From: Tetracentron sinense
Taxonomy: Eukaryota; Streptophyta; Magnoliopsida; Trochodendrales; Trochodendraceae
Reading direction: 5' to 3'
Assembly: GCA_015143295.1 (NCBI GenBank)
Contig: CM026559.1
Coordinates: 22,582,826 to 22,646,825 of the forward strand
Length of the DNA stretch: 64,000 nt
Shown piece after piece: positions 5,734-58,327 of this stretch (within the stretch, counting starts at the first letter, position 1; each line of letters opens with the position of its first letter). The position numbers and the translations under genes are program-made. The notes under the pieces were generated by a model. It saw nothing but the letters and a program-made list of their open reading frames with translations. It ran no database searches and was not told the origin of the DNA.

Positions 5734-6394
5734 TGTCGCGACCCAAAATACCCCCTGAGAGTTAGGGATACTTTGGCTCGTGATGTGCCATATCCGATAC
5801 CAAACCATCCTGTAATAACATCCAAGTCAAGACAACCATAATTATGAATAAGGCGGAAGCTTAAACCAATGTGCGGAAGCGTAATCCAAAAATTTCTTTT
5901 CTATACATGCTGTGTATTCCAAGTTTGTACATACATCACAAAAGTAAAGGTGGACATGCCCACCTATCAAAATACAAAATGATAATACTCTCTCTCTCTC
6001 TCTCTCTCTATGTAATCACTCTAAAAGGGCCAGTGGTCTAAGTCATTTGCCTCCTCCTGAGGCTCTACATATGGCTCCTCCTCGCCATATTCCTCCTCTA
6101 TCCAGGGCCCCTGATCACAGATGTCAAATGGAGTCCGTGTACCTGCCGACATAACATGTACTGCTGAGCATGGAATACTCAGCGAGCAAAATCTACTAGC
6201 TAACAATGCTATCATAATCACAATATTTTATACAGTGCGTAAAAGAATACAAATCACCAAAATCCATGCTTAAAACCCGTCGGGAAAAACCTTTCATAAA
6301 ACTTGTTCTTTTCATGGAAAACAAACCCTCTCATGTATGCTTATGAGTTCTTATGAATGCTTGTGAGCCTCGTGTTTTCTTATGAGTTCTTGTG
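5734..6394 (-). repeat. Partial 5' LTR of A1
   Basis: The last 660 bases or so of the 5' LTR, matching A2 33536-34196 essentially base for base, including a (GA)n run. It breaks off in the N gap. It includes the conserved leader block (hairpin and acidic mini-ORF) described for A2. Confidence 0.9.
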
Positions 6395-18675: not shown

Positions 18676-20998
18676 TGTAAGCACCCTATTTTTGCACCCC
18701 CTATCCCTCTTCCCACGTCTTCAAATGCTCCAAGGTTTACCCAAGGCACAAGCCCATTTGACCAAACTTGTACCCAAACAACTCAATCAAGCCCAATTAC
18801 TTAATTCCATTACCCAAGCCCAAGTAGCCAAGCCTAATTACCCAATTGTCTTAGCTAAAACTCAATTGCTTTAGTGAAAGCCTAATTACCATAGCCCAAT
18901 CCCAATTGCCATAGTTAAAGTCCAATAATCATAACCCATGACCCATCTACTAACAATCATGATCCATATGGTCTAGTCCACATACCCACATCCATTCAAC
19001 CCATATCCAAGACCCACTAACCCAAGTCCACTTTCCACTTTCCTACAAAAGATCTTTTATTTTTTCTTCAAACCCCAAATAGCCCCATTTTTATGTTTAC
19101 ACACCTCTTTGACCACCCAATCATCTCTCACCAAGTACACACTTTTTTGACTAACCAATCACCTCCCATACTCCCTAACACCTCTTACAACTTATTCTTA
19201 TACCTCTTACAAAACAATTAATTCTCTTACACTTATTTTGACCATCCAATCACCTCTCATCAAGTACATACTTTTTTTATTACCCAATCACCAACCACAT
19301 CAATTTTGACCAACCAATCACCTCCCTTCTTCTCACCCAACCCTCTATTTATCACCAAATTGCCACAACCTCTTGAAACCTCTATAAATACAAGACCCTC
19401 ACAAGCCATTTCTTCCACCTCCAAAATCCCAAGTGGAAACCCTAGCTCTTCCTCCTCTCACCCCTTTTATTTCTTTTTACCCTTGAAGAAAGTTAGAAGA
19501 AGCCAAGGTTTAGAGTGTGTAGAGAATTCTAGGACTAAAAGCCTAGAGTTCTTCACTAACTCTCTTCCTTTGTAGACTCTAAAAACTCATCACCTCTTGG
19601 AGCATTGGAGAAGTAGTCTTAGAGGAGTAGGCACTCCTCCTTTTATTCTTTATCTTCTTGTTTACTTCATATCTTTTTTTTATTTGTAGTCTTCTTTTAG
19701 AATAATTTGGGAAGATCTTTCTTTTCTCAAGTTTAGTTGGGTTTCTCTACACCAATCTAATGGTGTAGAGGGACCCCACCTCAAAAGAAAGGAGATGTCT
19801 TATTTTTTCTCTCGTGTAAATATTTATTTCTTTCATATGTACCCACTAGTGTGGATATGGGTAGGCCCATAGAGAGTGGAAGCTAAAGCTATACCTCTCT
19901 TTTTATTTTGTTTCTTCATATTGATTCTAGTCCTTCTTCTAGAATCATTTGGGAAACTCATCATCACTCTAATCTTCATAGTTGAATCTCATTATATCAT
20001 TCATAATGGTGTAAAGGGATTACATTAGAGAGGAGATGATGAGATTTCATTTTCTTCACTTGTCACTTTTTCATTTCTTTCTTTTTTCTTCATGTTCTAT
20101 TTTGAATGGATAAATGATGACTTAAGGACCTAAGGACTTAAAGAGGACTTTATCCAAAATGCCTCATATCAAAGACAATGGTATTTGATTTATTATCAAC
20201 ACCAATCCAACAAAATAAGTGTTGGCAATAGACTATTTACTATTCACAATGCACACTCCTCTTTATGTCCTAAATATAATCTTTTAGCCTAACTTTTCCT
20301 TAGTCTTTCTCTTGGATTAAATTTGACATTAGTTAAGTTTGCCAAAATCTCACCTATATGAAAATCCAAAAAAAAAAGAACATGATAAATTCTCAAAATA
20401 CCAAAAACATTATAAAATCTCAAAATACCAAAAAAATCTAAAAATACCAAAAGACCAAAAACATGCTTGCTAGATCTTGCTTAGCCTACTCAACCATGAT
20501 TAACACCCTTCTAACTGCGGTTAGACCTAGACCTTGCACTTGACCAACCCGGTCAACTAAACCCTAGCCCCTAGGCTAGACCCTTGACCACCTTATGCAC
20601 ACACACACCACCCTTAGCCTTGGCACGGGCTCATGTGCCAGAACTACGCTCGGTCTGATCTCACCCCAATGTGAGTACGTAGGCAACCCAACCCGGGTTC
20701 GACCCTAGCCCATCTAGCTTTCTTTCTTTCTTGGATCAGCATTTGATTAAACATTTAGACATTTTAATTAATATTGAGATTAAATTTTGCTTAAATTTAG
20801 GGAGTAGGTAACCATTACAAAATGGGGGTCTTGGGGTGCCTAACACCTTCCCCATGACTTAATCGAACCGCTTACCCTAACTCTAATAAATCATTTGCCT
20901 TATCCAAATCAATCCGGGACCTATCCCTAAGAATGAATAGGTGGCGACTCTTAGTCAAACCACAAATGTGAAAGTGGGTAGAAAAATCCATGCTCACA
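18676..20998 (+). repeat. 5' LTR of element D
   Basis: Starts TGTAAGCACCC and ends TGCTCACA. It contains a TATA box at 19383-19390 (TATAAATA) and pairs with the 3' LTR at about 99% identity. The small open frame at 19306-19575 recurs in the other LTR and has no recognisable product. Confidence 0.95.
19383..19390 (+). promoter_or_regulatory. TATA box of D 5' LTR
   Basis: TATAAATA about 710 bases into the LTR, followed about 30 bases on by a CA-rich likely start region. The same motif is at 27455-27462 in the 3' LTR. Confidence 0.6.
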
Positions 20999-21002
20999 GC
21001 TC

Positions 21003-21020: not shown

Positions 21021-22010
21021 ATTGGTTCAAGCCGGAACCTAAACTTAAGCCAAATTAATCTCAACATTAATCAAAATGCTTAAGAGATTAATTAATTGCT
21101 AATTCTTTATATCTCTTTGGTGTTTTTGTAAATGTGCATTTCATACATATCATTGTAGTGTAAATGACCCATTAAACCCAGTAGAGAGGCTTATTACGCT
21201 TACGGCTGCTGGATGACTATCCTCAGTGACAGAGGATTAACAGTCTTGGAGGTCTGCGGAATTACTCCTGCTAGGTGATTACCCTCAGGGAAGGATTCTA
21301 AACGCTCCCGCTTACACCAATCATCCATTTTTAGGTATGGTCTATACCGGGGAGTCGCATATACGGTGTTAAGTGACCCTATCCTTTTAGGAACACCCTT
21401 ACATTACACCTGCATGCATACATATAGACTAGGCTATGGTATAGTCTATAAACAGCCCACCTAGAGGGATACTCAAAATCCTAACTTGCTTGCAGCATAT
21501 ACCTGTCCCCCAATCATGGTGGAATATCAGGACGCTCTGTCCAGATAAACACCCATCTAGGGGGCATGTACTGAGCCTTTTGTTGTGCTTGTAATAAAAT
21601 ACACTCTACCCTGCATCTCAGCATAGCATATGGGGTTCAAATCCCAAGTAGATAGGTCTTCACCAGACCTACCCTCAACTTTGACCTGATAGGCCCTCGG
21701 TTCCCAATAACCCGGGTTAAAGCATGTCGGACTTCCGTCCGTCTTCCTTATCGGATCACATATGCCTTGTCACACCCAAAAAAAAAGAAATCAAAAAATC
21801 AAAAAAAAAAAAAAAAATCCTCCCTCTTGCATGTCATATTAAGCTTCCAGACTAGGGGCATTGTCTCTATGTCAATTAGACTGTGCATCTTACCTCATTC
21901 TTATCTATTCAAACACAACTCCACACCTCCCATCTTTTCAGGAGTGGACCCTAAGTCAAGCACGTATCAGAAAAGCAAAACCAGTTGATACCTGATTAAC
22001 CGATTGCAGC
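21021..22010 (+). other. 5' leader of element D
   Basis: Untranslated leader between primer site and gag. It contains an A-rich run near 21775-21817 and no supported ORF. Confidence 0.6.
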
Positions 22011-23627
22011 ATGGACCCTCGGGATGGCCAAGAGACTGACCCTGACACACCGACATCGCAACAACCACAAGCCTCGAATCTTGAAGCAAGAATAGTTGAG
22101 AATGCCCAGAACATAGAAGAATTGAAAAACATTGTGCATGATTTTATGCGGGCCATAACACATGCTCTCTCCTCCTCAAATCCTCGATCGACCAATGTGT
22201 CAGGCCCATCACTATCCAATCCGCCACATGTTACCAGTCTTATCCCTCCGCCACCTGTTATCAACATTCCACCACCTGTTCAGCCTCCACAACTGCATAC
22301 CCTCAATATCCCTCCACCACCCGTCCAACCACAACCCGACTTCACTTTCGGCATGCCACCTCCACCTGTTCAACCACAACCTATACCCCATATCACACCT
22401 CCCATCATTGACCAATTTGAGGAGGAGGAAGCCAGAGCTGGTGGTGAACCCCATACCGGGTCCGCTCACATATCTTCCAGTTCAGCACATATTACTGATG
22501 CTTACAAAGAAAGAATTGAGAAGTTGGAAGAGCTGATGAGGACATCTCAAGAAGCCCGCAAATCAAATGATTTCAGGGACATGTGCATGCACCCAGGGAT
22601 TCAATTGCCCCGAGATTTTAAAATACCTGATTTTGAGAAGTACAACGGGAAGGGATGTCCCGAGATGCATTTGAAAGTCTACCGTGGAGAGTTGTTCCAG
22701 TTGGAACATGATGACAAGTTGTTGGTCCAGCTATTTCAGAAAAGTTTAAAAGGTGCAGCCTTGCAGTGGTTTACTAAGGTCGACCCCAACAAAGTCAGGA
22801 CATGGGAAGGTCTGTGCGAGACATTCTTGGCCAAGTACTCCTATAATGTTAACCTAGTCCCACAAAGGGTAGACCTAGAAAAGATGTCACAGAGGGATAA
22901 TGAGTCTTTCATCAAATACTCTGTTCGGTGGAGAGAAATTGCCGGAAAAATGAGCACCCCTTTACCGGAAGAGGAACAAGTGACAACCTTCCTCCGTACC
23001 CTCAAACATCCACTCAAAACTCTCTTGGCTGCACAACTGATCTCCGAATTTAGCACCATGGTCAAATGTGGTGCCCGGATTGAGGCAACGATGGATGACG
23101 TAGGGGCATTTGACATGTTCCAAGGGTCAAAAGGTGCATCCTCTTATCGTGCTTCCCTACCTCCAAGAAAAGATAATAGAACAAGAGAAAATGATGGAGA
23201 AATGGTCGCGGCCATTCGAGTCCCCAACCTCCCTCAACAACCTCGGCAGCCATCGCAGCCGCGGCAGTCTCAACAAGCTCAACATAATCAAGGAAGACTC
23301 CTCTCTCATCAGATGACAATTGAACAAAAAAGAAATCGGACGTTCACCCCGATCCCGTACTCCTTGACAGCACTCCTCCCGTTCTTGTTGAATAAGAAAT
23401 TGATCACCCTGAAGGATCCCCAACCTCCACCGGCAGTTCTCCCAAAAGGATACAGGCCAGATCAGCATTGCGGATATCACCAGTCACCAGGACATCCTAC
23501 GGATCGATGTTATGATTTCAAACATGTTGTCCAGGACTTGTTGGAGACAGATGCAATTTTCTTTACACCGGGGAATGTTGACATCACACAGGTCCCTTTG
23601 CCCAACCATGCTACGCCGGGAAGTTAA
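22011..23627 (+). CDS. Gag protein of Ogre-like element D
   Basis: A 538-residue open frame. N-terminal part: a short helical segment (NAQNIEELKNIVHDFMRA), then a proline-rich stretch at about residues 65-145 with repeated IPPPxxP units. Middle, about residues 195-320: the retrotransposon gag core (DFEKYNGKGCPEMHLKVYRGEL, LKGAALQWFTKVDP, FLAKYSYN), typical of Tat/Ogre gag. C-terminal: GYRPDQHCGYHQSPGHPTDRCYDFK, the C-x2-H...H-x4-C zinc-knuckle-like segment seen in this lineage before protease. Gag packages element RNA. Start chosen at the first Met of the long frame. The frame is open throughout, unlike pol, which is absent downstream. This suggests gag may still be selected or is simply young. 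Confidence 0.85.
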   Translation: MDPRDGQETDPDTPTSQQPQASNLEARIVENAQNIEELKNIVHDFMRAITHALSSSNPRSTNVSGPSLSNPPHVTSLIPPPPVINIPPPVQPPQLHTLNIPPPPVQPQPDFTFGMPPPPVQPQPIPHITPPIIDQFEEEEARAGGEPHTGSAHISSSSAHITDAYKERIEKLEELMRTSQEARKSNDFRDMCMHPGIQLPRDFKIPDFEKYNGKGCPEMHLKVYRGELFQLEHDDKLLVQLFQKSLKGAALQWFTKVDPNKVRTWEGLCETFLAKYSYNVNLVPQRVDLEKMSQRDNESFIKYSVRWREIAGKMSTPLPEEEQVTTFLRTLKHPLKTLLAAQLISEFSTMVKCGARIEATMDDVGAFDMFQGSKGASSYRASLPPRKDNRTRENDGEMVAAIRVPNLPQQPRQPSQPRQSQQAQHNQGRLLSHQMTIEQKRNRTFTPIPYSLTALLPFLLNKKLITLKDPQPPPAVLPKGYRPDQHCGYHQSPGHPTDRCYDFKHVVQDLLETDAIFFTPGNVDITQVPLPNHATPGS

Positions 23628-25923: not shown

Positions 25924-26530
25924 TCGATGGATGGTTGTGTGATCAACCTTCACCTCATCTTCGGTAAAATGGTTGTGTGATCAACATTCACCTCATCTTC
26001 GGTGGATGGTTGTGTGATCAACCTTCACATCATCTCCGGTGAAATGGTTGTGTGATCAAACTTCACCTCATCTTCGGTGAAATGGTTGCGTGATAAACTT
26101 TCACCTCATTTTCGGTGAAATAGTTGTGTGATCAACTTTCACCTCATCATCCGGTGGATGGTTGTGCGATCAACCTTCACCTCATTTCCGGTGAAATGGT
26201 TGTGTGATCAACCTTCACCTCATTTTCGGTGGATGGTTGTGTGATCAACCTTCACCTCATCATCCGGTGGATGGTTGTGCGATTAACCTTCACCTCATCC
26301 TCGGTGAAATGGTTGTGTGATCAACCTTCACCTAGTCTCCGGTGGAATGGTTGTGTGATCAACCTTCACATCGTCTTTGGTGGAATGGTTGTGTGATCAA
26401 CCTTCACCTCATCCCCGGAGAAATGGTTGTGTGATCAACCTTCACCTCATCCTTGGTGGAATGGTTGTGTGATCAACTTTCACTTCATCTCCGGTGAAAT
26501 GGTTGTGTGATCAACCATCACCCCATCTCC
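25924..26530 (+). repeat. Tandem array of about 16 hairpin-forming 38-bp units
   Basis: Units follow the pattern GGTGAAATGGTTGTGTGATC then AACCTTCACCTCATCTTC. Most contain an inverted repeat: GGTGAA-N2-GGTTG, loop TGTGAT, CAACC-TTCACC. Sixteen units are visible with few gaps. Repeat-rich 3' UTRs are known in Ogre/Tat elements and have given rise to satellites in some plants. Confidence 0.9.
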
Positions 26531-26732
26531 GTTAAAGCGGACACATGTTCACTCCTCTCACCTATCATGCATTCACTTTCATCTCCAGCACTCCACATTT
26601 TTGTCTTGGCAAACTTAACTTAGTTTCAAGTTAGTTCATTATCATTTCTTATATTTTTCCAAGTTTCGCAGGTTTTACTGTGCAAAAATAGTGGTGATTT
26701 CAGTCTTTGTCGTTCGCTTGCCCGCACCCTCC

Positions 26733-26748: not shown

Positions 26749-29069
26749 TGTAAGCACCCTATTTTTGCACCCCTATCCCTCTTCCCACGTCTTCAAATGC
26801 TCCAAGGTTTACCCAAGGCCCAAGCCCATTTGACCAAACTTGTACCCAAACAACTCAATCAAGCCCAATTACTTAATTCCATTACCCAAGCCCAAGTAGC
26901 CAAGCCTAATTACCCAATTGTCTTAGCTAAAACTCAATTGCTTTAGTGAAAGCCTAATTACCATAGCCCAATCCCAATTGCCATAGTTAAAGTCCAATAA
27001 TCATAACCCATGACCCATCTACTAACAATCATGATCCATAAGGTCTAGTCCACATACCCACATCCATTCAACCCATATCCAAGACCCACTAACCCAAGTC
27101 CACTTTCCACTTTCCTACAAAAGACCTTTTATTTTTTCTTCAAACCCCAAATAGCCCCATTTTTATGTTTACACACCTCTTTGACCACCCAATCATCTCT
27201 CACCAAGTACACACTTTTTTGACTAACCTATCACCTCCCATACTCCCTTACACCTCTTACAACTTATTCTTATACCTCTTACAAAACAATTAATTCTCTT
27301 ACACTCCTTTTGACCATCCAATCACCTCTCATCAAGTACATACTTTTTTTATTACCCAATCACCAACCACATTAATTTTGACCAACCAATCACCTCCCTT
27401 CTTCTCACCCAACCCTCTATTTATCACCAAATTGCCACAACCTCTTGAAACCTCTATAAATACAAGACCCTCACAAGCCATTTCTTCCACCTCCAAAATC
27501 CCAAGTGGAAACCCTAGCTCTTCCTCCTCTTACCCCTTTTATTTCTTTTTACCCTTGAAGAAAGTTAGAAGAAGCCAAGGTTTAGAGTGTGTAGAGAATT
27601 CTAGGACTAAAAGCCTAGAGTTCTTCACTAACTCTCTTCCCTTGTGGACTCTAAAAACTCATCACCTCTTGGAGCATTGGAGAAGTAGTCTTAGAGGAGT
27701 AGGCACTCCTCCTTTTATTCTTTATCTTCTTGTTTACTTCATATCTTTTTTTTATTTGTAGTCTTCTTTTGGAATAATTTGGGAAGATCTTTCTTTTTTC
27801 AAGTTTAGTTGGGTTTCTCTACACCAATCTAATGGTGTAGAGGTACCCCACCTCAAAAGAAAGGAGATGTCTTATTTTTTCTCTCGTGTAAATATTTATT
27901 TCTTTCATATGTACCCACTAGTGTGGATATGGGTAGGCCCATAGAGAGTAGAAGCTAAAGCTATACCTCTCTTTTTATTTTGTTTCTTCATATTGATTCT
28001 AGTCCTTCTTCTAGAATCATTTGGGAAACTCATCATCACTCTAATCTTCATAGTTGAATCTCATTATATCATTCATAATGGTGTAAAGGGATTACATTAG
28101 AGAGGAGATGATGAGTTTTCATTTTCTTCACTTGTTACTTTTTCATTTCTTTCTTTTTTCTTCATGTTCTATTTTGAATGGATAAATGATGACTTAAGGA
28201 CCTAAGGACTTAAAGAGGACTTTATCCAAAATGTCTCATATCAAAGACAATGGTATTTGATTTTTTATCAACACCAATCCAACAAAATAAGTGTTGGCAA
28301 TAGACCATTTACTATTCACAATGCACACTCCTCTTTATGTCCTAAATATAATCTTTTAGCCTAACTTTTCCTTAGTCTTTCTCTTGGATTAAATTTGACA
28401 TTAGTTAAGTTTGCCAAAATCTCACCTATATGAAAATCCAAAAAAAAAGAACATGATAAAATCTCAAAATACCAAAAACATTATAAAATCTCAAAATACC
28501 AAAAAAATCTAAAAATACCAAAAGACCAAAAACATGCTTGCTAGATCTTGCTTAGCCTACTCAACCATGATTAACACCCTTCTAACTGCGGTTAGACCTA
28601 GACCTTGCACTTGACCAACCCGGTCAACTAAACCCTAGCCCCTAGGCTAGACCCTTGACCACCTTATGCACACACACACCACCCTTAGCCTTGGCACGGG
28701 CTCATGTGCCAGAACTACGCTCGGTCTGATCTCACCCCAATGTGAGTACGTAGGCAACCCAACCCGGGTTCGACCCTAGCCCATCTAGCTTTCTTTCTTT
28801 CTTGGATCAGCATTTGATTAAACATTTAGACATTTTAATTAATATTGAGATTAAATTTTGCTTAAATTTAGGGAGTAGGTAACCATTACAAAATGGGGGT
28901 CTTGGGGTGCCTAACACCTTCCCCATGACTTAATCGAACCGCTTACCCTAACTCTAATAAATCATTTGCCTTATCCAAATCAATCCGGGACCTATCCCTA
29001 AGAATGAATAGGTGGCGACTCTTAGTCAAACCACAAATGTGAAAGTGGGTAGAAAAATCCATGCTCACA
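26749..29069 (+). repeat. 3' LTR of element D
   Basis: TGTAAGCACCC to GCTCACA, 2321 bp, pairing with 18676-20998 with about 24 differences by eye. Confidence 0.95.
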
Positions 29070-29074
29070 GATAT
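29070..29074. repeat. Target-site duplication of element D (right)
   Basis: GATAT, the partner of 18671-18675. Confidence 0.95.
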
Positions 29075-30288: not shown

Positions 30289-31233
30289 TGTTAGGCATTA
30301 TGCCCTGAAAAGTCATTCAGATTGTAAGATTCTTATTGATTAGATTAATAAAGATATGTTCTTTATCTATTATGAATTCATTATGGGTAATTGACCATGA
30401 TTATGAAATGATCTATACGATATGAGATATCAATCAAGGTCCCTAGGATATATTGTAGGAAAGTTATGTGATAGGTATTGGACTATCATAAGTAGATATA
30501 GCTTTGTAGTTCCTTTTACCTTATAGAGTCACACCTATAGGTGAAGCTAGGCACTTCACTTATATGGCTGGCACAATGCTAAGATGTTCTCAATGGTTGA
30601 GATATAGTTTTATCCCAAACTATTGTAGTAAAGACTACACATCAGCATATGGGTGCTTGAATGTACACTGATTGATTGCATGCAATGAGAGACCTCTTGC
30701 GTAAACATACTATCGGATAGTTGGTCTTTCATTCACATTAAACAGTTTTGATGATCCTTAGATCTAATGAGTTCATTTATAACTGAGTTATAATTTGACT
30801 GTTTTGATTGCACCTAAGTACTCTCTACCCGAGGGACTACGATACGGTGATAGTTGGATAATCAGAAAGTTGTTCGAGTTATGATGAATTTCAAACAAGA
30901 AATTCATGCTCATTAAATTGAGAGATTATCCAAGTTCTGGGTAAGACAGTCGATTAAGCTTAAATCTTGCGCAGGTGATTTTGAAATCATATAAGTTTGA
31001 AATATATTTTTAACAAAATATATTATACTTAATAAAAGTTTTTCTCAAAAAGTTTTACATGAGAAATGGTTTCTCATGACTTAATTAAATGTCTTGGAAA
31101 CCTAGATGATGTTCAATGGGTTATGATTAGATAGTATTTTAATCTCGAAGGCCCATTAGGGATAATGTTATTGGAAAGATAAATCAAATTAAAAAGTTCA
31201 TGTGGCGGGATCCTTAGTGGTTAATGTTCTTAT
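30289..31233 (+). repeat. LTR-like repeat F1
   Basis: Begins TGTTAGGCATTATGCCCTGAAAA and matches F3 (62288 on, plus) and, in reverse, F2 (39052-39771). Similarity to F3 ends near GGTTAATGTTC at about 31233. The TG start and dispersed copies suggest an LTR, perhaps Ty1/copia type, but no internal region is attached here, so the class is unproven. Confidence 0.65.
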
Positions 31234-31555: not shown

Positions 31556-32089
31556 TGTAGAACCCCGGATCTTGATGGCCATGTACGATGAATGATATCA
31601 TATACTAAAGCATGTAAGAATGTATTTATGGTGTATGGGTGTTTGGAATGAAATAGGCAAGAGTATAGAATACTCTTGAGTATTGACAAGGGTTATGCCT
31701 TGGCATACCCTCGACTTAAATAGCCCTAGCGTTCACACCACTCGTCAGAATCAAGCGATTCTTGAATTTTTAGAAAGGTAATTAAACCCTCTTCGGGGTT
31801 CATGTTGATCACTTGGCTTGGTTTTGAGTTGGTGTTAGGTCAAAAGACTGATTTCTGAAGTCGGGTCGGTTTAAAATCTGGATTGACGAAACCCAATTTC
31901 GGATCAGTCAGGTTTAGGGGGAAAACGGTCCAAGAAAAAGGAAGAATTGGAAGTTGTGAAAAACATGAAAGTTGTTTTCCTTCAAAAGAAGAATCCAACG
32001 CAAGTTGAATCGTCAAAATCGGACAAGTGAGTCAAAAGTTATGGCCAAGATACGAAAACGTAAAAATGCTGAAGCTTTCTGCAAAAGTT

Positions 32090-32254
32090 GCGATCGCTCG
32101 TAGGGACCCTACGAACGATCGTAGCGGAGCTACGAACGATCGTAAAGCCCCAGAAATGCTGGAAACTCTCGGGTGAAACTACGATTGATCGTAGGAAGCT
32201 ACGATCGATCGTAGAAGGCTACGATCAATCGTAAATCGCTACGAACGATCGTAG
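32090..32254 (+). promoter_or_regulatory. Array of GATC-centred palindromes in A2 LTR
   Basis: Seven copies or near-copies of CTACGATCGATCGTAG, a 16-base palindrome, spaced by 4-40 bases, the last ending about 58 bases upstream of the TATA box. Family B carries an array of a related palindrome in the same place (48792-48975). The position suggests upstream promoter elements; this is an inference. Confidence 0.65.
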
Positions 32255-32311
32255 ATAAGCGATTTTACTTTCTTGGATGCGATTTTTTTAGGGGTTTTTC
32301 ACCCCTTACAC

Positions 32312-32319
32312 TATAAATA
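32312..32319 (+). promoter_or_regulatory. TATA box of A2 LTR
   Basis: TATAAATA about 756 bases into the LTR, followed by AGAAGAC. It defines the likely start of element RNA, giving a transcribed LTR part of about 1.85 kb. Confidence 0.65.
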
Positions 32320-33379
32320 GAAGACTTTAGGAGGGTTTTTGGGTTACCCTAAACCAAGGAGAGTTCCTAGAAAGAGAAGGAAAGGATCTTGAGCATTCCA
32401 AAGAGGGTTTTGTTTGAAACCAAGAAGAGCTTCAATCAAGGGTTGGATCTTCCCCAAATCAAGCTTGGATCATTCAAATCAAGTGAGGATTTCTCAAGGG
32501 GTTTCTTCAACCTAGAAATTGATCCAAAGAGGTTAGTAAACTACTATCTAGCCTTGTTATCATACAAAGATGATTCAAATAGGTGATTTTAATTCTATTA
32601 TGATATAAATAGGAAGTGTGGAAATTTGGGTGAACTAGATCATGAATAAACAATCAAATAAGGTTTTACAAATTGAGGGTTTTTCAATAACAAGGATGAA
32701 TATAGCTAAACTTGTAAGAAAATTATAATACCTTTAAATGAACCATGATTTTAAGTATACTATGATGCAATGACAAACAAGGGATTTTGGGTGAACATGA
32801 TTATGTTCAAATAAGCAAATAAGGATTTAAGATTTTGGGGGTTTTCCAATAAAAGGGTGAATATGACTATAAGTGCAAGTAAGTGTTAATATCCTCCAAG
32901 GAATCATGATTTTAAGTGTGATATGATGAATTAGGCTTAGAAGCCATGATTGTTATGATGTGATGCAATGAATGAAATTTTCTACATTCTAGAATTGTTT
33001 AAGTATGTTATGATGCTAATATACCTTGTATGAACCATATGAGTTACTTAAGGTCTTCAAGTATACTACAATGATCATTATGCCTTGCATGAACATGTTT
33101 AATTAGTTAAAGCTTTCCACATAGATGTTATAATGCTCACAAGCACTCTACGCATGATAAGTATTGCACGACCGCGGTTTTTCTCATAAGCATGAATTTT
33201 CAAGAAAACATAAGAGGATTTTCAAAGGCATTCATAAGTAAGAAGCATACATGCATAAGCATAGACTAAGCCAAACTTTGGGTTGGCATTCTAAGATCGG
33301 TTACTCCACGCTCACAAGGATCAAGTCTAGATCTTGGATGAACTCCACGGATCATAAGTCTCGCAAGGCTTTTCAAGAA

Positions 33380-33600
33380 CTCATAAGAAACTCACAAGTC
33401 TAAGATCTTGCATATGTCTCCAAGGAGAACAAGCTCACAAGGATCATAAGCTCACAAGAAGCTCACAAGTACTCATAAGCTCACAAGAAGCTCATAAGCT
33501 CACAAGTACTCACAAGCTCACAAGAACTCTAAGCTCACAAGAACTCATAAGAAAACACGAGGCTCACAAGCATTCATAAGAACTCATAAGCATACATGAG
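33380..33600 (+). repeat. CTCACAAG/CTCATAAG short repeats in A2 LTR
   Basis: About fifteen irregular copies of a 10-base motif CTCACAAGAA or CTCATAAGCA within the transcribed part of the LTR. Family B has related CTCACAAG repeats at 49900-50130. Confidence 0.75.
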
Positions 33601-33746
33601 AGAGTTTGTTTTCTATGAAAAGAACAAGTTTTATGAAAGGTTTTTCCCGACGGGTTTTAAGCATGGATTTTGGTGATTTGTATTCTTTTACGCACTGTAT
33701 AAAATATTGTGATTATGATAGCATTGTTAGCTAGTAGATTTTGCTC

Positions 33747-33767
33747 GCTGAGTATTCCATGCTCAGC
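33747..33767 (+). ncRNA. Conserved leader hairpin in A2 LTR
   Basis: GCTGAG, a nine-base loop, CTCAGC. The whole 21-base block is identical to 50426-50446 in family B, although most of the surrounding LTR is not alignable by eye. It is likely an RNA stem-loop in the element leader; its function is unknown. Confidence 0.55.
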
Positions 33768-33777
33768 AGTACATGTT

Positions 33778-33909
33778 ATGTCGGCAGGTACACGGACTCC
33801 ATTTGACATCTGTGATCAGGGGCCCTGGATAGAGGAGGAATATGGCGAGGAGGAGCCATATGTAGAGCCTCAGGAGGAGGCAAATGACTTAGACCACTGG
33901 CCCTTTTAG
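33778..33909 (+). other. Acidic mini-ORF in A2 LTR leader (43 codons)
   Basis: A short open frame, also open upstream to 33709. From Met-Ser-Ala-Gly it contains PFDIC, PW(I)EEEY and further acidic residues. Family B has a 39-codon frame at the same place with MSAG, PFDIC, PW(V)EEEYVEEP. Residues are shared where third bases differ (for example GAC/GAT, TGG-ATA/TGG-GTG), which suggests coding. It could be an upstream ORF or a remnant exon. An alternative is that the conservation reflects splice signals, since CAG/GT and a TTACAG site flank the block. The mirrored copy in A1 lies at 6021-6152. Confidence 0.5.
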
Positions 33910-34200
33910 AGTGATTACATAGAGAGAGAGAGAGAGAGAGAGTATTATCATTTTGTATTTTGATAGGTGGGCATGTCCACCTTTACTTTTGTGATGTATG
34001 TACAAACTTGGAATACACAGCATGTATAGAAAAGAAATTTTTGGATTACGCTTCCGCACATTGGTTTAAGCTTCCGCCTTATTCATAATTATGGTTGTCT
34101 TGACTTGGATGTTATTACAGGATGGTTTGGTATCGGATATGGCACATCACGAGCCAAAGTATCCCTAACTCTCAGGGGGTATTTTGGGTCGCGACAGAGG

Positions 34201-34212
34201 TGGTATCAGAGC
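34201..34212 (+). other. Primer-binding site of A2 (initiator Met tRNA)
   Basis: TGGTATCAGAGC four bases after the LTR end. Confidence 0.85.
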
Positions 34213-34519
34213 TTAGGCATTAGAGTCCCTAGGGTCACTTAGTACTCGATACCACGATCAAAACAAGGCATTATGATTGAGGAAAGAGTCGTATTCCAAG
34301 TATAGACTAATCTTTAATCTTAGTCCATAACCGGTTGGAATCCGACCAAACTTAGTACCCTACGCTAGAACCACACATTGTATGATTATCTACTACAATG
34401 TATACCTTGATGTATTACTATCAATTACCTTATGAATTTGAAATGAGCTTGAAATTGTGATTGAGATGAAGTTGGTTTCCAAGTTAGACTCATGTTCTGC
34501 TACTGTTCTCAGGATTAAC

Positions 34520-35780
34520 ATGAGACGTGGTAGTGGACGGGGTCGCGGTTACCAAACTCGGGGCAACAGTAATGGAGGAGACCCTCCCTCGGGTGATGAT
34601 CAACCCGATATATCTCAGTTGTTAAATACTATGGTGGAGACCATCACCATGCTAGCAGCCCGACAGCCTGCTGCTACTACTGAGTTGGCACACCCACCTC
34701 CTCCACATCACACCTCGGGACTCGAGGCATTCCGAAGGCTACATCCACCTACCTTTTATGGGACCACCGACCCCATGGTTGCAGAGGAGTGGATTATGCA
34801 ACTGGAGAAAATATTCCGTGCTCTTCGTTGCACCAATGAGCAAAGGGTAGATTGGGCTGCCTTCATGATGGAAGGAGAAGCCGACCATTGGTGGAGAGCG
34901 GCGTTGAGACAGAGAGACACCGCCAAGGCAGGAGAGCCGTGGACTTGGGGTGAATTCCTTGATGCCTTCTATGGGCAGTACTTTCCCAAGATTGTCAAGC
35001 AACAGAAGGAGATGGAGTTCATGTCCCTAGTGCAAGGGAATATGAGTGTGGCCGAGTATGAGGCCAAATTCGTTGAATTGTCCCGATTCGCACCACACTT
35101 GATCACGACGGAGGAGATGCGAGTCCGGAAATTTGAGAGTGGGTTGAAGCCCTTCATCAAGGATCGAGTCTCCATTCTTCAAGTGGAGTCTTGGAGAGAG
35201 ATTGTGGGGAAGGCAAGGATTGCCGAAAAGAACTCAGAGGAGTTTCTTAAAAGAAGAGAGGGTGGCTTCGGGAGAGCCATGCAGAAGGGTCAGTCTAGTG
35301 GCTCAGCACCACCGGAGAAGAGGGCCAGGATTTCCCAGTACCCACCTCCTAGGCCTACACAGACACAGAGGTCTTCGTTTGCATCACCAGTGCCTCGCCC
35401 GACTATTTCACAGGCACCTCGCCCCGCTTTTTCTCAGGGCACCAGATATGTACAGCCGTCACCCTCTTCATCCTTTGAGGAGTGTGACTATTGTGGTCGG
35501 AGACACCCGGCTGGAGAGTGTCGGAGAGCATCGGGAGGATGTTTCCATTGCGGCGAGCAGGGCCACATAATTAAAGATTGCCCACGCCGACAGTCACGGG
35601 CTCAGCCTCAGGGGAGCAGGCCCCCAGTTCGGCAGACTTCTCAGCAGGGGTCTTCACAAGCTTCGGCATCTAGACCCGCACGGCCCACTCAGACCACACA
35701 GCAGCCTCGCCAGGCAAACAGAGGCCGGGTCTTTGCCTTAACAGAATGGGACGCACAGGCATCAGACGATGTTGTGCAAG
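34520..35780 (+). pseudogene. gag region of A2
   Basis: Fossil gag with a Met-Arg-Arg start, arginine- and glycine-rich head, gag core (EEWIMQLEKIFRALRC, EADHWWRAALRQRD, AEYEAKFVELSRFAPH) and CCHC knuckle CFHCGEQGHIIKDC near 35540-35580. It ends in the intron-like interval before protease. It is part of a broken element. Confidence 0.88.
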
Positions 35781-35917
35781 GTACGCGAGAATTTCTAAAG
35801 TGTTCAAGTATGAAATGATGAGTGCTATAAGTATACGTATAATCACTTGTATGTCATGCTACCTATACTCTATGTATGTTGCTGAAAACCACTGATATAG
35901 TTAATTACAATGCACAG
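35781..35917 (+). other. Intron-like interval between gag and pol of A2
   Basis: 137 bases from GTACGCG to CACAG. It has the same place and border type as in B (52475-52617), with an interior that does not align well. Interpretation as an intron is an inference. Confidence 0.5.
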
Positions 35918-39051: not shown

Positions 39052-39771
39052 TTTTAATAAAATTGTGATTTTCATAAAACGTATGTGATATCGACAAAAT
39101 CACACCGACACAGGATTGGAACGTTAGATCAACTGTCTTATCCCGAACTTGGATAATCTCTCAAATAATGAGATGGATTTCTAGTTTAAAAATTCATCAT
39201 GACTCGAATAGCTTTTTGACATCAATTGTTCACGAACTTGTATTCCCTAAGTTAGAAAAAAAATAGTTGGTAGAATTCTCAAAACAGTTGGGTGGATCAG
39301 CCTCAGTCATAGTGAACACATAGATCTAAGGAGCATGAAATTGTTCATGTGTATGAGAGATCAACTATGATAGTATGTTATGCAAGAGGTCTCGCATTGA
39401 ATGCAATCAGCAGTGTACATTAAGCACCCATAAGTGTGTGTAGTCTCCACTACAACAGTTCGAGATTAGAACTACATCTCAACTATTGAGAAACATCTTG
39501 CATTCTGGGCAGCAATAAGTGCAAGCCTAGCTTCACCTACAAGTGATTATATACGCTATAAGGGATACGGAAAGTATATTTGCCTGTGAATATCATCACT
39601 TAACTTCCTACTAATAGATCCTATGGACCTTTATCGATACTCATATCGTTCTAGATCATCTCATGATCATGGTTCAATACCATAATGGAATAAACAATAG
39701 TTAAAAGTCTTTAGTATCAAATTAATAAGAGTCTAACAATCACAAGACTTTTTGGGCCATGATGTCTAACA
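39052..39771 (-). repeat. LTR-like repeat F2
   Basis: On the minus strand it starts TGTTAGACATCATGGCCC at 39771 and follows the same course as F1 and F3 with more divergence. It breaks off in the N gap. It abuts the LTR relic G, so it may have inserted into it. Confidence 0.65.
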
Positions 39772-40072
39772 CATGGGCGAGGAGGAGTATGTTGAGAAGG
39801 ATCTACGAGAGATTAATTTGGTGGAGGATAGGGGCCTTATAGGGGGCCTTTCTGCTTACTGTTGAGATGAGAGGGAGAGATTGATATTGATCACATGATC
39901 CACTGTTGTATAACTTGGAAACAATACAGTTTATGTATAATGAAATTTCAGCTTCCCACTTTCAGTATGCGTTGTAGGTTTTTACAGGATGATTGGAGTG
40001 GGACCCGCCCACCGAGACAACAAGTCTATAACTCATAACGCCTAGGTAGAATTAGAATTTGGATCGTGGACA
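39772..40072 (+). repeat. Relic of a third chromovirus LTR (G), 3' part
   Basis: Weak but ordered similarity to the ends of LTRs A and B: an acidic frame with GEEEYVE at the left edge, then TGTATAACTTGGAAAC, GTTTTTACAGGATG, and an end near GGATCGTGGACA where A and B end GGGTCGCGACA. It is old and degraded. The coding-like EEEY match supports the mini-ORF seen in A and B. Confidence 0.5.
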
Positions 40073-48583: not shown

Positions 48584-48791
48584 TGTAGAGCCCCGGACCT
48601 TTTCACATTATGCATGACCCTTCGTAGCCATTTTTCCTTTAAAGTAATGCAATTAATAAATAAGGAAGAAATTGGAAATTCCGAAACGTCAGAAATGTTC
48701 GTTTTCGAAGTACGAACCCAACGCAAGTTGAATCGTCAAAATCGGACGAACGAGTCAAAAGTTATGGGCAAAACAGTTTGGACCTACAGAC

Positions 48792-48975
48792 CACCGATCG
48801 CTCGGTCCATGGAGCGATCGATCGGTCCAAAACCGATCGCTCGGAGGCTATCGACTGGTCGAGATTTTTCTATGGGGAAATTTTCCAGAGAGTGAAATTT
48901 CAACCGATCGCTCGGTTATGAAACCGATCGATCGGTAGGCAACCGATCGATCGGTCATTAACACCGATCGCTCGG
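48792..48975 (+). promoter_or_regulatory. Array of GATC-centred palindromes in B 5' LTR
   Basis: About eight copies of ACCGATCGATCGGT or ACCGATCGCTCGGT, starting about 210 bases into the LTR and ending about 60 bases before the TATA-like TTATATAGG. Repeated in the 3' LTR at 56255-56438. Confidence 0.65.
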
Positions 48976-49036
48976 CCCTCGCGTTTTGCAGAATTTTCAC
49001 TAAGGGCATTTTCGGCATTCGGGTGTTATACCCTTT

Positions 49037-49046
49037 CTTATATAGG
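49037..49046 (+). promoter_or_regulatory. TATA-like box of B 5' LTR
   Basis: CTTATATAGG between the palindrome array and the transcribed LTR part. The position corresponds to TATAAATA in family A. Confidence 0.5.
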
Positions 49047-50425: not shown

Positions 50426-50446
50426 GCTGAGTATTCCATGCTCAGC
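50426..50446 (+). ncRNA. Conserved leader hairpin in B 5' LTR
   Basis: GCTGAG, nine-base loop, CTCAGC, identical over 21 bases to family A at 33747-33767. Confidence 0.55.
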
Positions 50447-50456
50447 CGTACTTCTT

Positions 50457-50576
50457 ATGTCGGCAGGTTCTGAGGGAGCTGCTGCTCCGTTTGATATCTG
50501 TGCTCCGAGCCCTTGGGTGGAGGAGGAGTACGTCGAGGAGCCTTTGGAGGAACCTCCCGTAGAGGGTTACCATTAG
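50457..50576 (+). other. Acidic mini-ORF in B LTR leader (39 codons)
   Basis: Open frame from Met-Ser-Ala-Gly with PFDIC, PWVEEEYVEEP and a glutamate/proline-rich end. It shares frame, order and residues with the family A frame at 33778-33909. Repeated in the 3' LTR at 57920-58039. Product and function unknown. Splice-signal conservation is an alternative explanation: CAG/GT at 50466/50467 and TTTTGCAG at 50789. Confidence 0.5.
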
Positions 50577-50868
50577 GTGGTTGTAGATTCTGAGTGAATA
50601 GCTGTGGGTGAGATGAGAGATATACTTTCATGTATTTTGGCGGGTCTGTCCGCACTTTCTTTTGGTTACTTTTCTATAACTTGGATTTGCGCATGTATAT
50701 TCATAGAGGTTTGGTTAGACCTCCACTGTGTTTTATAGTTATGTTCCGCTATATTGTCCTCTATGGTATATGCTCTGTGGGTTTTGCAGGTTGGTTGTCA
50801 AGCAAGTCATGATTAGTCGTCCAAAGTTCACTCTAACTCCTAGGGTGGGTTTTGGGTCGCGACAGAAG

Positions 50869-50880: not shown

Positions 50881-51225
50881 TTAGGCTTTAGGTCTCTAGG
50901 GTCACTTAGAATCTTATACCACGGCTTGACAAGAGCATATGTTAGGAAACAAGTTAGGAAGGAAGTGAGTCGGGAACGAGTCTGGTTCCAAGTTTAAGAC
51001 TAAACTTTAGTCTTAGTCTACAATGGTTGCTTTAACCAAGTACGGGTCCTAGGTACGCTAGAACACTAAAGTATAAGTATAATGTGATGAATACTCTGAT
51101 GACTTGATGTGATGTATATTAGTATTATACAACTAATACAAATTGAATTATTGTGAAGTGACATGGAAATAAACTGTGGTTTCGAGTGAGACTCATGTGG
51201 TGCTATTGTTCTCAGGACTTTAGTC

Positions 51226-52506
51226 ATGAGGCGGGGCACACGGGGTCGTGGACCACACACCAGAGCTTCATCTTCTTCCAGAGATGAGGATGAGCAGCCG
51301 GACCTCTCCCAGGTCTTAGGCTCTATTGCTGAGACACTCGCCATCCTGGCGGCTCGGCAAACTATACCGGCATCAGCGGCACCTACTCCACCGCCCGCAG
51401 CTCCGGTACATCGTACGGCTGGAGTTGAGGCATTCAGGAGATTGAGGCCTCCATCCTTCCACGGGAGTGTGGACCCTCTTACTGCGGAGGCTTGGATCCT
51501 CCAGGTTGAGAAGATATTTGCGGTGCTCTCTCCTACAGAGGAAGAGAAAGTGGCATGGGCAGTTTTTATGCTAGAAGGCGAAGCCCACCATTGGTGGTTG
51601 TCCGCATTGAGGACACGGGACTTGACCATGCAAGGTCAACCGTGGACTTGGGAGGAGTTTAAGGACACGTTCTATAAAAAGTATTTCCCGGTTGGAGCTC
51701 GGGAAAAGAAAGAGAGAGAATTCATCAACCTTGAGCAAGGTTCGATGTCTGTGGCCGCTTATGAGGCCAAGTTCTCGGAGCTATCACGCTTCGCGACACA
51801 TATGATTGCCACCGAGGCAATGAAGGCGAGGAGGTTTGAGCAAGGGCTCAAGGATGTCATCATGGAGAAAGTGTCGGTCTTCAGGCACACCACTTACGCC
51901 GAAGTAGTGGATAAAGCCTTGTTGGTTGAGACCAATTCAGAGACTGTGTCCAAGAAGAGAGAATTGGCGAGAGGCCAATCTAGTGGTTTGGTACCTTTAG
52001 AGAGGCGGGCCCGGACTGGTCCTTATCAGTATACATGGCCAGCACCACAGATGAGGCCGACTTATGCGCCTCCAGCACCCCGGCAGTACGTGCCACAGGC
52101 ACCTCGACCTCAGGCTCTTCCGGCCCCACGGCCAGTTACCCCTCAGGCAGCGAGGTATACACCACCTCCGGTCCCTCCAGCCTACACATATGATGCCTGC
52201 ACTTCATGCGGCAAAAGGCATCCGGCAGGAGATTGCCGAAGAGCATCTGGTGGATGTTATCATTGCGGTCGCCAGGGCCACATGATCAGGGATTGCCCTA
52301 GCCGGCATTTACCAGGCCAGTCTCAGGGTAGTAGGCCCCCGACACGCCCAGCAGGATCATATCAGGCGTCATCTCAGACTACCCGGTCTACACCTCAGTC
52401 TCGCCAGGCGAACCAGGGGCGTGTATTTGCTTTGACAGAGGGTGATGCACTTGCATCTGATGATGTGGTGCAAGGTACGCGTTTGGAATTATTTTGTTAT
52501 TCATGA
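51226..52506 (+). CDS. Gag protein of chromovirus B
   Basis: 426 codons. Start at the Met followed by RRGTRGRG, matching the family A gag start. Residues about 60-230 form the retrotransposon gag core (EAWILQVEKIFAVLS, VAWAVFMLEGEAHHWW, EYEAKFSEL-type segment). A proline- and glutamine-rich linker follows, then a CCHC knuckle CYHCGRQGHMIRDC near residues 346-359. Gag forms the particle and binds element RNA. The last codons run into the intron-like interval before pol, so the natural C-terminus may differ if that interval is spliced. Confidence 0.9.
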   Translation: MRRGTRGRGPHTRASSSSRDEDEQPDLSQVLGSIAETLAILAARQTIPASAAPTPPPAAPVHRTAGVEAFRRLRPPSFHGSVDPLTAEAWILQVEKIFAVLSPTEEEKVAWAVFMLEGEAHHWWLSALRTRDLTMQGQPWTWEEFKDTFYKKYFPVGAREKKEREFINLEQGSMSVAAYEAKFSELSRFATHMIATEAMKARRFEQGLKDVIMEKVSVFRHTTYAEVVDKALLVETNSETVSKKRELARGQSSGLVPLERRARTGPYQYTWPAPQMRPTYAPPAPRQYVPQAPRPQALPAPRPVTPQAARYTPPPVPPAYTYDACTSCGKRHPAGDCRRASGGCYHCGRQGHMIRDCPSRHLPGQSQGSRPPTRPAGSYQASSQTTRSTPQSRQANQGRVFALTEGDALASDDVVQGTRLELFCYS

Positions 52507-52617
52507 TTGATATGTTGCGTTTTATTCCTTGTGTACATACTTGGTATGATATATATATATACCTATGTGTATACTCTGTTGATGCATGAATTAACTCCAC
52601 TAGTTAAAAAATTTCAG
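52475..52617 (+). other. Intron-like interval between gag and pol of B
   Basis: 143 bases beginning GTACGCG and ending AAATTTCAG, A/T-rich compared with the coding sequence on both sides. It lies at the same place as in A1 and A2. GT...AG borders, T/A richness and conserved position argue for an intron. Frameshift or internal initiation are alternatives. Confidence 0.5.
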
Positions 52618-55943: not shown

Positions 55944-56032
55944 ATTTTGTATAGGTTTTGTATATGTAGCTTGTAATATTGTTTGATTCTGTAATGCATG
56001 TCTCATCCAAATTTCGAGGACGAAATTTTTGT

Positions 56033-56045
56033 AAGGGGGGAAGGA
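56033..56045 (+). other. Polypurine tract of element B
   Basis: AAGGGGGGAAGGA directly before the 3' LTR. Confidence 0.85.
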
Positions 56046-58327
56046 TGTAGAGCCCCGGACCTTTTCACATTTATGCATGACCCTTCGTAGCCATTTTTCC
56101 TTTAAAGTAATGCAATTAATAAATAAGGAAGAAATTGGAAATTCCGAAACGTCAGAAATGTTCGTTTTCGAAGTACGAACCCAACGCAAGTTGAATCGTC
56201 AAAATCGGACGAACGAGTCAAAAGTTATGGGCAAAACAGTTTGGACCTACAGACCACCGATCGCTCGGTCCATGGAGCGATCGATCGGTCCAAAACCGAT
56301 CGCTCGGAGGCTATCGACTGGTCGAGATTTTTCTATGGGGAAATTTTCCAGAGAGTGAAATTTCAACCGATCGCTCGGTTATGAAACCGATCGATCGGTA
56401 GGCAACCGATCGATCGGTCATTAACACCGATCGCTCGGCCCTCGCGTTTTGCAGAATTTTCACTAAGGGCATTTTCGGCATTCGGGTGTTATACCCTTTC
56501 TTATATAGGATTGCCCGAGCCTTTAGGGCTCATTCTCAACCCTTAGAGTTTTTTGAGAGATAGAGAGAAAGGAGAAGGTTTTCCTAAACCTAGGGTTTCC
56601 ATTTGAAGAGAAATCAAAGGGGTTTGAGACCCTAGATCATCCTCAAGTCTATTTTCTCCAAGTCTCGGCTCAAGCTCGTGTGGGGCACTCTCCTCAAGCT
56701 AGGGCAGCAACTCACGGTCGTTTTGGAAAGGGGGATTTCTTCCTCACTTGATCAAGGTCGGTGCTTTTTACTACCCTCCTAGTTATAGCCTCTCCTTTCC
56801 TTATTTCTTCTTGTTTTCCTTCATATATATATATATTATGAGATGGGTGGTATGTATGGTAAATGGAGAGGGATGTTGGCGAATGGATGCCGTGTGGATG
56901 ATGTAATGAATGAATGGGGAAGGGCATTGTACAAATAATAAACATACAAGTGTGATGTGAGTATAACCCACCTAGAAAAGCATGTTGTAGGGTTAATGAA
57001 TAATGAATGTACCATGTTTGATGAAATGCCAAGGTGAATAAAATGAATGATAAATTAAGAAAATGCATGTTTAAGGTTTATGGAAATTGCTAGGGTTATG
57101 ATAGTGTGATTGTTCGCTTTCCCTAAATGATATCAATATGGCATTGCCCAAATCATTGATGTTATGCGTTATGAATTACTCAAATGCCATATTTAATTCT
57201 AAATGCAAGTATGCACACGACCTCACGAGCACGCATACATGACATGATTTTACCGAGGTTTTCAAGAATGGGATTTAGAGGTGGGGCATATCGTACGATA
57301 TGTTTTACCTCGCTTTTGGCAAGGACAAGACAATCATGCATTTTCATAAGAAGGGTCTCCCTTCCCTCACAAGTGCATACATCACATAAGAAGGGCCTCC
57401 CTTCCCTCGCAAGTACATCTCACAAGAACATCTCACAAGTGAAAGGACATGACATGAGCATTTAGGAAGAAGGGTCTCCCTTCCCTCACAAGTAGTTTAC
57501 TCTTCCAAGCATGATACAAGCAAGCATGACATGGCATGACAAGCATGGGCATTTAGGAAGAAGGGTCTCCCTTCCCTCACAAGTAGTTTACTTTCCAAGC
57601 AAGCAAGACATGGCATGACATGCATGATACGATAAGATAAGACTAACATGACAAGTTTTCAAGCAAGGAAATGGTATTTTCAGTCAAGTCAAGTGCACGG
57701 TGTTTTCAAGGGTTTTATCGGCTTTTATGAATTCAAGCATGATTATGTACTCCTTTACTTTATTGTCATGATATAAATTATTCCTGCTTTATATGCTTGA
57801 ATTGTTTCCTGCTTTATATATGTGAAATGCTTCCTGCTTCCTATACTGCTATGGTTTTGCTATGACTATTGGTTAGTATTTAGTACCCGCTGAGTATTCC
57901 ATGCTCAGCCGTACTTCTTATGTCGGCAGGTTCTGAGGGAGCTGCTGCTCCGTTTGATATCTGTGCTCCGAGCCCTTGGGTGGAGGAGGAGTACGTCGAG
58001 GAGCCTTTGGAGGAACCTCCCGTAGAGGGTTACCATTAGGTGGTTGTAGATTCTGAGTGAATAGCTGTGGGTGAGATGAGAGATATACTTTCATGTATTT
58101 TGGCGGGTCTGTCCGCACTTTCTTTTGGTTACTTTTCTATAACTTGGATTTGCGCATGTATATTCATAGAGGTTTGGTTAGACCTCCACTGTGTTTTATA
58201 GTTATGTTCCGCTATATTGTCCTCTATGGTATATGCTCTGTGGGTTTTGCAGGTTGGTTGTCAAGCAAGTCATGATTAGTCGTCCAAAGTTCACTCTAAC
58301 TCCTAGGGTGGGTTTTGGGTCGCGACA
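56046..58327 (+). repeat. 3' LTR of element B
   Basis: 2282 bp, differing from 48584-50864 by one inserted base near its start as far as I can see. It contains second copies of the palindrome array, leader repeats, hairpin and mini-ORF. Confidence 0.96.

Follow-up and report, generated by a model that had tools for sequence, protein, structure and literature searches.

The long terminal repeats (LTRs) of plant retrotransposons are usually treated as non-coding. Among the chromoviruses is CRR of rice. Transcripts of this plant Gypsy element are spliced (PMC3735527), and alternative splicing of BARE1 (PMC3735527) and EVADE (PMC12786077) gives Gag without Pol by leading to an early stop; a selected C-terminal LTR exon is not mentioned in the available portions of these two sources. 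In Ogre, of the Tat lineage, an intron between gag and pol is spliced from part of the transcripts only (PMC6317226). Separated open reading frames (ORFs) are named for Bianca and Ogre only in the available part of the same source, where an exon of 40 codons would go unlisted because extra ORFs were predicted from 250 codons up. The gypsy-type element Cer1 of C. elegans produces CERV, an accessory protein for export of unspliced RNA, from a spliced mRNA composed of gag-frame exons and a 3′ exon (PMC10309623). Here we describe a block of hairpin plus short frame inside the LTRs of chromovirus-lineage elements in Tetracentron sinense, found in a stretch of 64,000 nucleotides that is hereafter called the window (assembly GCA_015143295.1, contig CM026559.1, positions 22,582,826 to 22,646,825, forward strand). 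We put at roughly 0.5 the probability that this block represents a 3′ splice site (A1) followed by the coding part of a terminal exon, which would be spliced to a donor in gag (D2) to encode a Gag protein with an acidic tail. No description of a coding exon inside an LTR was found in the literature searched, which mostly excluded subscription journals.

Like Ogre, these elements carry an intron between two parts of the polyprotein that can be removed by splicing; they differ in being chromoviruses, in having this intron between gag and protease, and in a possible further acceptor in the LTR exon. The block also offers what a CERV-like spliced accessory exon would be expected to have, i.e., a predicted 3′ splice-site sequence and, after it, a frame selected as protein. 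Here the proposed exon comprises about 40 codons and lies inside the LTR, and the likeness to Cer1 drawn here is one of arrangement. The window contains family A twice, once on each strand, the two elements being 99% alike along 5.4 kb; family B is represented by a single element, whose two LTRs are nearly identical and spaced 7.46 kb apart. Pfam searches with the family B pol matched RVP_2, RVT_1, RNaseH, H2C2, SH3_Tf2-1, and Chromo, the last of these (E = 1.2e-4, 22.4 bits) under the Pfam cut-off of 25.1; family B appears to follow the Ty3/gypsy order of reverse transcriptase, RNase H, and integrase with a chromodomain, as in the Tekay chromovirus. The host genome searched comprises 1.16 Gb, and all copy counts below refer to this one genome.

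Every LTR in the window that reaches that far carries an identical 21-base hairpin, GCTGAGTATTCCATGCTCAGC (GCTGAGTAT-TCC-ATGCTCAGC), with a short frame ten bases further. The hairpin is found at 33747–33767 (plus strand) and 6163–6183 (minus strand) in the two family A copies and at 50426–50446 and 57889–57909 in the family B LTRs. Counted from their ATG, the frames have 43 codons in family A (33778–33909; the second copy, 6152–6021 on the minus strand, encodes the same peptide) and 39 codons in family B (50457–50576 and 57920–58039). Hairpin and frame lengths thus agree with a preliminary description of this DNA, and the third LTR relic that it mentioned does retain a remnant of the frame, namely MGEEEYVEKDLREINLVEDRGLIGGLSAYC and a stop codon (39773–39865, plus strand), truncated by a repeat that ends at 39772. 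Read from the proposed splice site, the acidic coding exon, encoding (G)TRTPFDICDQGPWIEEEYGEEEPYVEPQEEANDLDHWPF up to the stop codon, extends from 33788 to 33909, with counterparts at 50467–50576 (family B 5′ LTR), 57930–58039 (family B 3′ LTR), and 6021–6142 (minus-strand family A copy). These LTRs have several open ATG frames with at least 39 codons (A, 3 observed and 2.9 expected; B, 6 observed and 3.8 expected); as such frames are not rare, ORF length was rejected as evidence, and the evidence is conservation between families.

A codon-position test was carried out on 21 clusters, obtained from 100 hairpin places that gave 84 distinct exons, of which 68 had at least 30 open codons (16 were dropped); eight of the 21 cluster representatives came from loci picked for GTCGGCAGG. 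The 210 pairs of representatives were aligned as nucleotides and differences were counted where codons align in frame, which gave 1050, 1149, and 2274 differences at codon positions 1, 2, and 3, respectively, i.e., changes about twice as frequent at the third position. Substitutions falling equally on all positions, named in the preliminary description as the pattern that would speak against its proposal of protein-level constraint, were therefore not seen. The proportions of synonymous (pS) and nonsynonymous (pN) differences in the acidic frame were 0.585 and 0.206, with a pN/pS of 0.35, as compared to 1.32 and 1.10 in the other two frames. Because the 210 pairs are not independent, the three closest pairs from different groups (A–E, B–B2, and C–C′) were tested separately, with 11, 11, and 44 differences at the three positions (p = 7e-8). 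These patterns indicate that the frame after TCGGCAG|GT is almost certainly selected as protein and hence protein-coding. The motif PW(V/I)EEEY is exact in 11 of the 21 representatives, with near variants in the remainder, and an end in WPY, WPF, or WPH is present in nine, none of them in the B group. Pfam searches with three of the peptides returned one sub-threshold match for the family A peptide (E = 0.26) and none for the two others. In one copy (L103), which is apparently recombinant, the acidic exon continues straight into gag-like sequence (REFINLKQGSMSVA...).

The acidic frame probably starts at the proposed splice site A1 (TCGGCAG, 33781–33787, plus strand) instead of at the ATG. Majority-base frequencies are 0.90–1.00 from −9 to +2 and 0.33–0.76 thereafter; part of this boundary is forced by the search pattern, which demanded T at −6, C at −5, and A at −1 and restricted five more positions, none of which counts as independent evidence. 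A less biased sample comprised the first 30 loci listed when the hairpin was the sole criterion, every one of them on contig C1; AG|GT was retained in all 30 and the ATG in 28. The codons for S, A, and G of MSAG are nearly without synonymous change (TCG in 20, GCA in 18, and GGT in 20 of the 21 clusters, partly forced by the pattern); since synonymous change is near saturation downstream, this stretch seems to be conserved as the nucleotides TCGGCAG|GT, and constraint switches from a nucleotide type to a protein type at AG|GT. In three of the 21 clusters the ATG is replaced by GTG, ACT, or TCT with the acidic frame still open. Genome-wide, 425 hairpin copies have an intact acceptor and a base other than A at the first position of the ATG, with TTG and CTG variants among them. 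Among 59 of the first 100 listed of these copies, nearly all of them TTG or CTG variants, we found 19 same-strand pairs that lie 7.4–8.9 kb apart; because this is about the spacing of the two LTRs in a full element, ATG-less elements seem to have multiplied.

The preliminary description had considered an upstream ORF, and an AUG-started mini-ORF peptide, translated from an RNA that starts near the hairpin or keeps an unspliced leader, would likewise account for a coding frame. In its favor, and weighing against a start at A1, the ATG is retained in 18 of the 21 clusters, beyond what a splice site needs, and in family A TATAAAATA precedes the hairpin by about 50 nt. TTG, CTG, and GTG are near-cognate starts that could still initiate translation, and the TTG and CTG copies were judged by hairpin, start codon, and acceptor. 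The U-rich tract of A1 is short as well, and the AG|GT of A1 scores moderately as a donor (6.7 in A and 4.4 in B, with a matrix of approximate values, as for all donor scores given here). Nevertheless, we consider translation from the AUG unlikely, given the scarcity of synonymous change in the MSAG codons, the open frame in the GTG, ACT, and TCT families, and the paired LTRs that lack an ATG. In addition, inspection by eye of families other than A revealed no TATA in a fixed position close to the hairpin, an unspliced leader would present many upstream ATGs (34–69 in the 1500 nt before the hairpin at the 21 loci printed), and the start context looks weak relative to the consensus. Two further candidates were set aside, i.e., A1 as a 5′ splice site, which is disfavored as the positions after GT are not conserved, and initiation from the ATG within the loop of the hairpin, which by eye is in frame in some families only.

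If the frame does begin at a splice site, its likely partner would be D2, the donor at the end of the open part of gag. The family A gag (34520–35780, plus strand; Pfam Retrotrans_gag and zf-CCHC) has 420 open codons up to D2 (CAAG|GTACGCG) and is followed by a gag-protease intron of 137 nt (35781–35917); in family B, the corresponding features are a gag of 416 codons (51226–52474) and an intron of 143 nt (52475–52617). The D2 donor pattern occurs in 6,704 genomic copies, and the exact intron-less gag-protease junction, with gag sequence before it, occurs in 34, which demonstrates from genomic copies that these elements splice and that D2 is used with the protease exon. D2 (CAAG|GTACG, phase 1 in both families) scores 8.0 in A and in B, is the top gag donor in each, and is the only gag donor above 3 at the same place in the two. 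In a further check, which covered the donor side only, with the protease acceptor misplaced or not found in several loci, 12 of the 13 additional distinct loci listed had D2 in phase 1 with gag open upstream, the frame being fixed by the search pattern. D2 was proposed as the partner because it is the best and only shared gag donor, because its use is demonstrated, and because it is in phase with the LTR exon.

Under this proposal, A1 of the 3′ LTR would be joined to D2, since D2, the A1 exon, and the protease exon are all in phase 1 of a glycine codon. D2 would then have three outcomes: retention of the intron would give Gag alone, joining to the protease exon would give Gag-Pol, and joining to the LTR exon would give an acid-tailed Gag. 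The tail would have approximately 35–48 residues, among them PWxEEEY or something close to it, and in roughly half of the clusters it would end in a WPY-like sequence. Within the hairpin, CTCAG could plausibly serve as a branch point, as it is located about 23 nt from the AG on the 5′ side; the hairpin may keep A1 weak, so that full-length RNA would survive. That, within one transcript, D2 chooses among intron retention, the protease exon, and the acidic exon of the 3′ LTR, and that the nearly invariant hairpin determines how strong the LTR acceptor is, is put forward tentatively, at slightly less than even odds. Because the exon is present in both LTRs, the copy at the 5′ end would lie inside the leader intron.

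Several observations count against an acid-tailed Gag. The D2-A1 junction was not found in the genome: two matches to the junction patterns were ordinary copies with an inserted base, the third exon start gave 0 matches, and the exon start of the first pattern fits 29 of the 84 distinct exon sequences. Neither for the leader donor nor for the gag donor was a genomic copy found that continues into the acidic exon, in a search that covered only the exon starts typical of B, C, and C′. The missing gag junction says little, since an RNA running from gag to the 3′ LTR is without parts needed for reverse transcription; the missing leader-donor junction says somewhat more, against the leader donor as partner. 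A match in phase would arise by chance in 1 of 3 cases. The family D version of the exon (L033, L042, L075, and L081) has diverged, is non-acidic, and is often broken, and the leader donor described below is missing in 11 of 43 places, families D and J included. Finally, the protease region has a conserved phase 1 donor of its own, which is weaker than D2 (B, 52705; scores of 7.4 and 5.7).

This last donor is the main point in favor of splicing of the acidic exon to another donor, in pol or in an unseen small exon, which would yield a different accessory protein resembling CERV of Cer1 and for which the evidence from the exon itself is identical. We regard this as improbable, given that D2 scores higher in both families and has its use demonstrated by the intron-lost copies, and that by eye the end of pol has no conserved donor. 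Leader exon 1 was also tried as a coding partner and rejected, as no conserved frame leads from it into the acidic exon.

The start of transcription probably lies some 1.4 kb upstream of the hairpin, because a TATA box, an ATG-free leader, and a conserved donor are located there. The TATA box, TATAAATAG (32312–32320, plus strand; B, 49038–49046), which is the proposed start of the transcribed part, lies within the longest ATG-free stretch of the LTR; this stretch is 293 nt in A, a length attained in 173 of 2000 sequences generated with a first-order Markov model, and 457 nt in B (3 of 2000). The putative leader donor D1 is AAAGAG|GTTAGTA in family A (32532–32538, plus strand) and ATCAAG|GTCGGTGC in family B (49294). 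Of the 43 distinct places with enough upstream sequence, 32 have its motif, AG|GTTAGTA or AG|GTCGGTAC, at a distance of 950–1400 nt on the 5′ side of the hairpin, and the 28 distinct D1 sites printed lie 980–1326 nt before the hairpin. The corresponding acceptor A2, GTTCTCAG (34505–34512, plus strand), is proposed 7 nt before the gag ATG at 34520 (B, 51208–51215, ATG at 51226); TTCTCAG|GA occurs just 5′ of gag in families A, B, and C. The D1-A2 junction string, in its family B form, has two genomic copies, one of them convincing. The match on C9 (3,298,705, plus strand) could represent one inserted A in an unspliced copy. The match on C23 (25,002,395–25,002,414, minus strand) is accompanied on the same strand by the gag-protease junction (25,001,132–25,001,163), with 1249 nt from gag ATG to donor, the length in the family B element of the window. 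Judged from the junction strings alone, C23 seems to have been copied from an mRNA spliced at both places; this one locus with both predicted junctions points to a mature leader that, in such an mRNA, would skip the block of hairpin and frame.

The hairpin occurs in 15,258 exact genomic copies, as compared to 0 for a reversed control pattern; 11,537 of these have ATGTCGGCAGG 5–20 nt downstream and 12,165 have TCGGCAGGT 8–23 nt downstream. Only 17 genomic copies change both loop C's while arms and GTCGGCAGG stay. Folding of the 76-nt hairpin context was unremarkable (z = −0.66), and the case for the hairpin therefore rests on its conservation. A second hairpin, AGGTGGG-CATG-TCCACCT (33965–33982, plus strand; B, 50639–50653), is located downstream of the stop codon; its pairing is kept while the stem letters differ between families (GGTGGG/TCCACC, GCGGG/TCCGC, and GAGCGAG/TTCGCTC), and it scores highest in 12 of the 21 cluster representatives, another hairpin being on top in the rest. 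With E allowed up to 1, Rfam searches returned two matches, which score well under their gathering thresholds and lie outside the hairpin and frame block. The two conserved hairpins and the GAG- and GAA-rich sequence directly after the acceptor would suit an RNA element, either a splicing enhancer rich in purines or a signal for packaging, whose acidic residues are a coincidence, but such an RNA-only function is very improbable, since the twofold third-position excess lies in the acidic frame and shifts with the frame in two controls.

The 5′ LTR of the plus-strand family A element (31556–34198), TGTAGAACCCCGG...GTCGCGACA, begins with TG, a start that agrees with the second A copy, and ends with GCGACA just before the primer binding site TGGTATCAGAGC at 34201. 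The LTRs analyzed here measure 2.3–2.6 kb, similar to complete LTRs of Tekay of beet (2.6–3.0 kb; PMC3605345). LTR lengths of plant gypsy-type elements were considered too variable for building LTR models (PMC3601003). Searches of IMG/VR gave 0 matches to the hairpin pattern and no relative of the reverse transcriptase segment, so that all comparisons are between copies within one genome. The A and B LTRs had been thought to align only at their ends and in the hairpin and frame block; ends and block do align, but so does a further segment, about 110 nt long (A LTR 380–493, B LTR 76–188), which is located upstream of the proposed TATA box (31935–32048, 48659–48771, and 56122–56234) and contains TCAAAAGTTATGG. 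Short palindromes around CGATCG, such as CTACGATCGATCGTAG and CCGATCGATCGG, are dense at 32091–32255 and 48793–48983, upstream of the TATA box in both LTRs, and a palindrome, TTTCGAGGACGAAA, stands immediately 5′ of the polypurine tract in families A and B (~56012–56045 and, on the minus strand, 600–634). Another element in the window, with LTRs at 18676–20999 and 26749–29070 (99% identical, ~8.07 kb apart), has no hairpin of the GCTGAGTATTCCATGCTCAGC kind; it contains a gag frame of 543 aa (21996–23627) and a 38-bp tandem array (25924–26610). A dispersed repeat of about 0.7–0.95 kb, 75–86% alike and with one copy inverted, is present at 30289–31232, 39052–39772, and 62288–63229, and its second copy is the one that truncates the exon relic at 39772.

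A gag-protease intron in a chromovirus is noteworthy in its own right. If the LTR does hold an exon selected as protein, annotation would be overlooking part of a protein in a common group of plant retrotransposons with thousands of copies, and a splicing switch would enter the balance among Gag, Pol, and genomic RNA.
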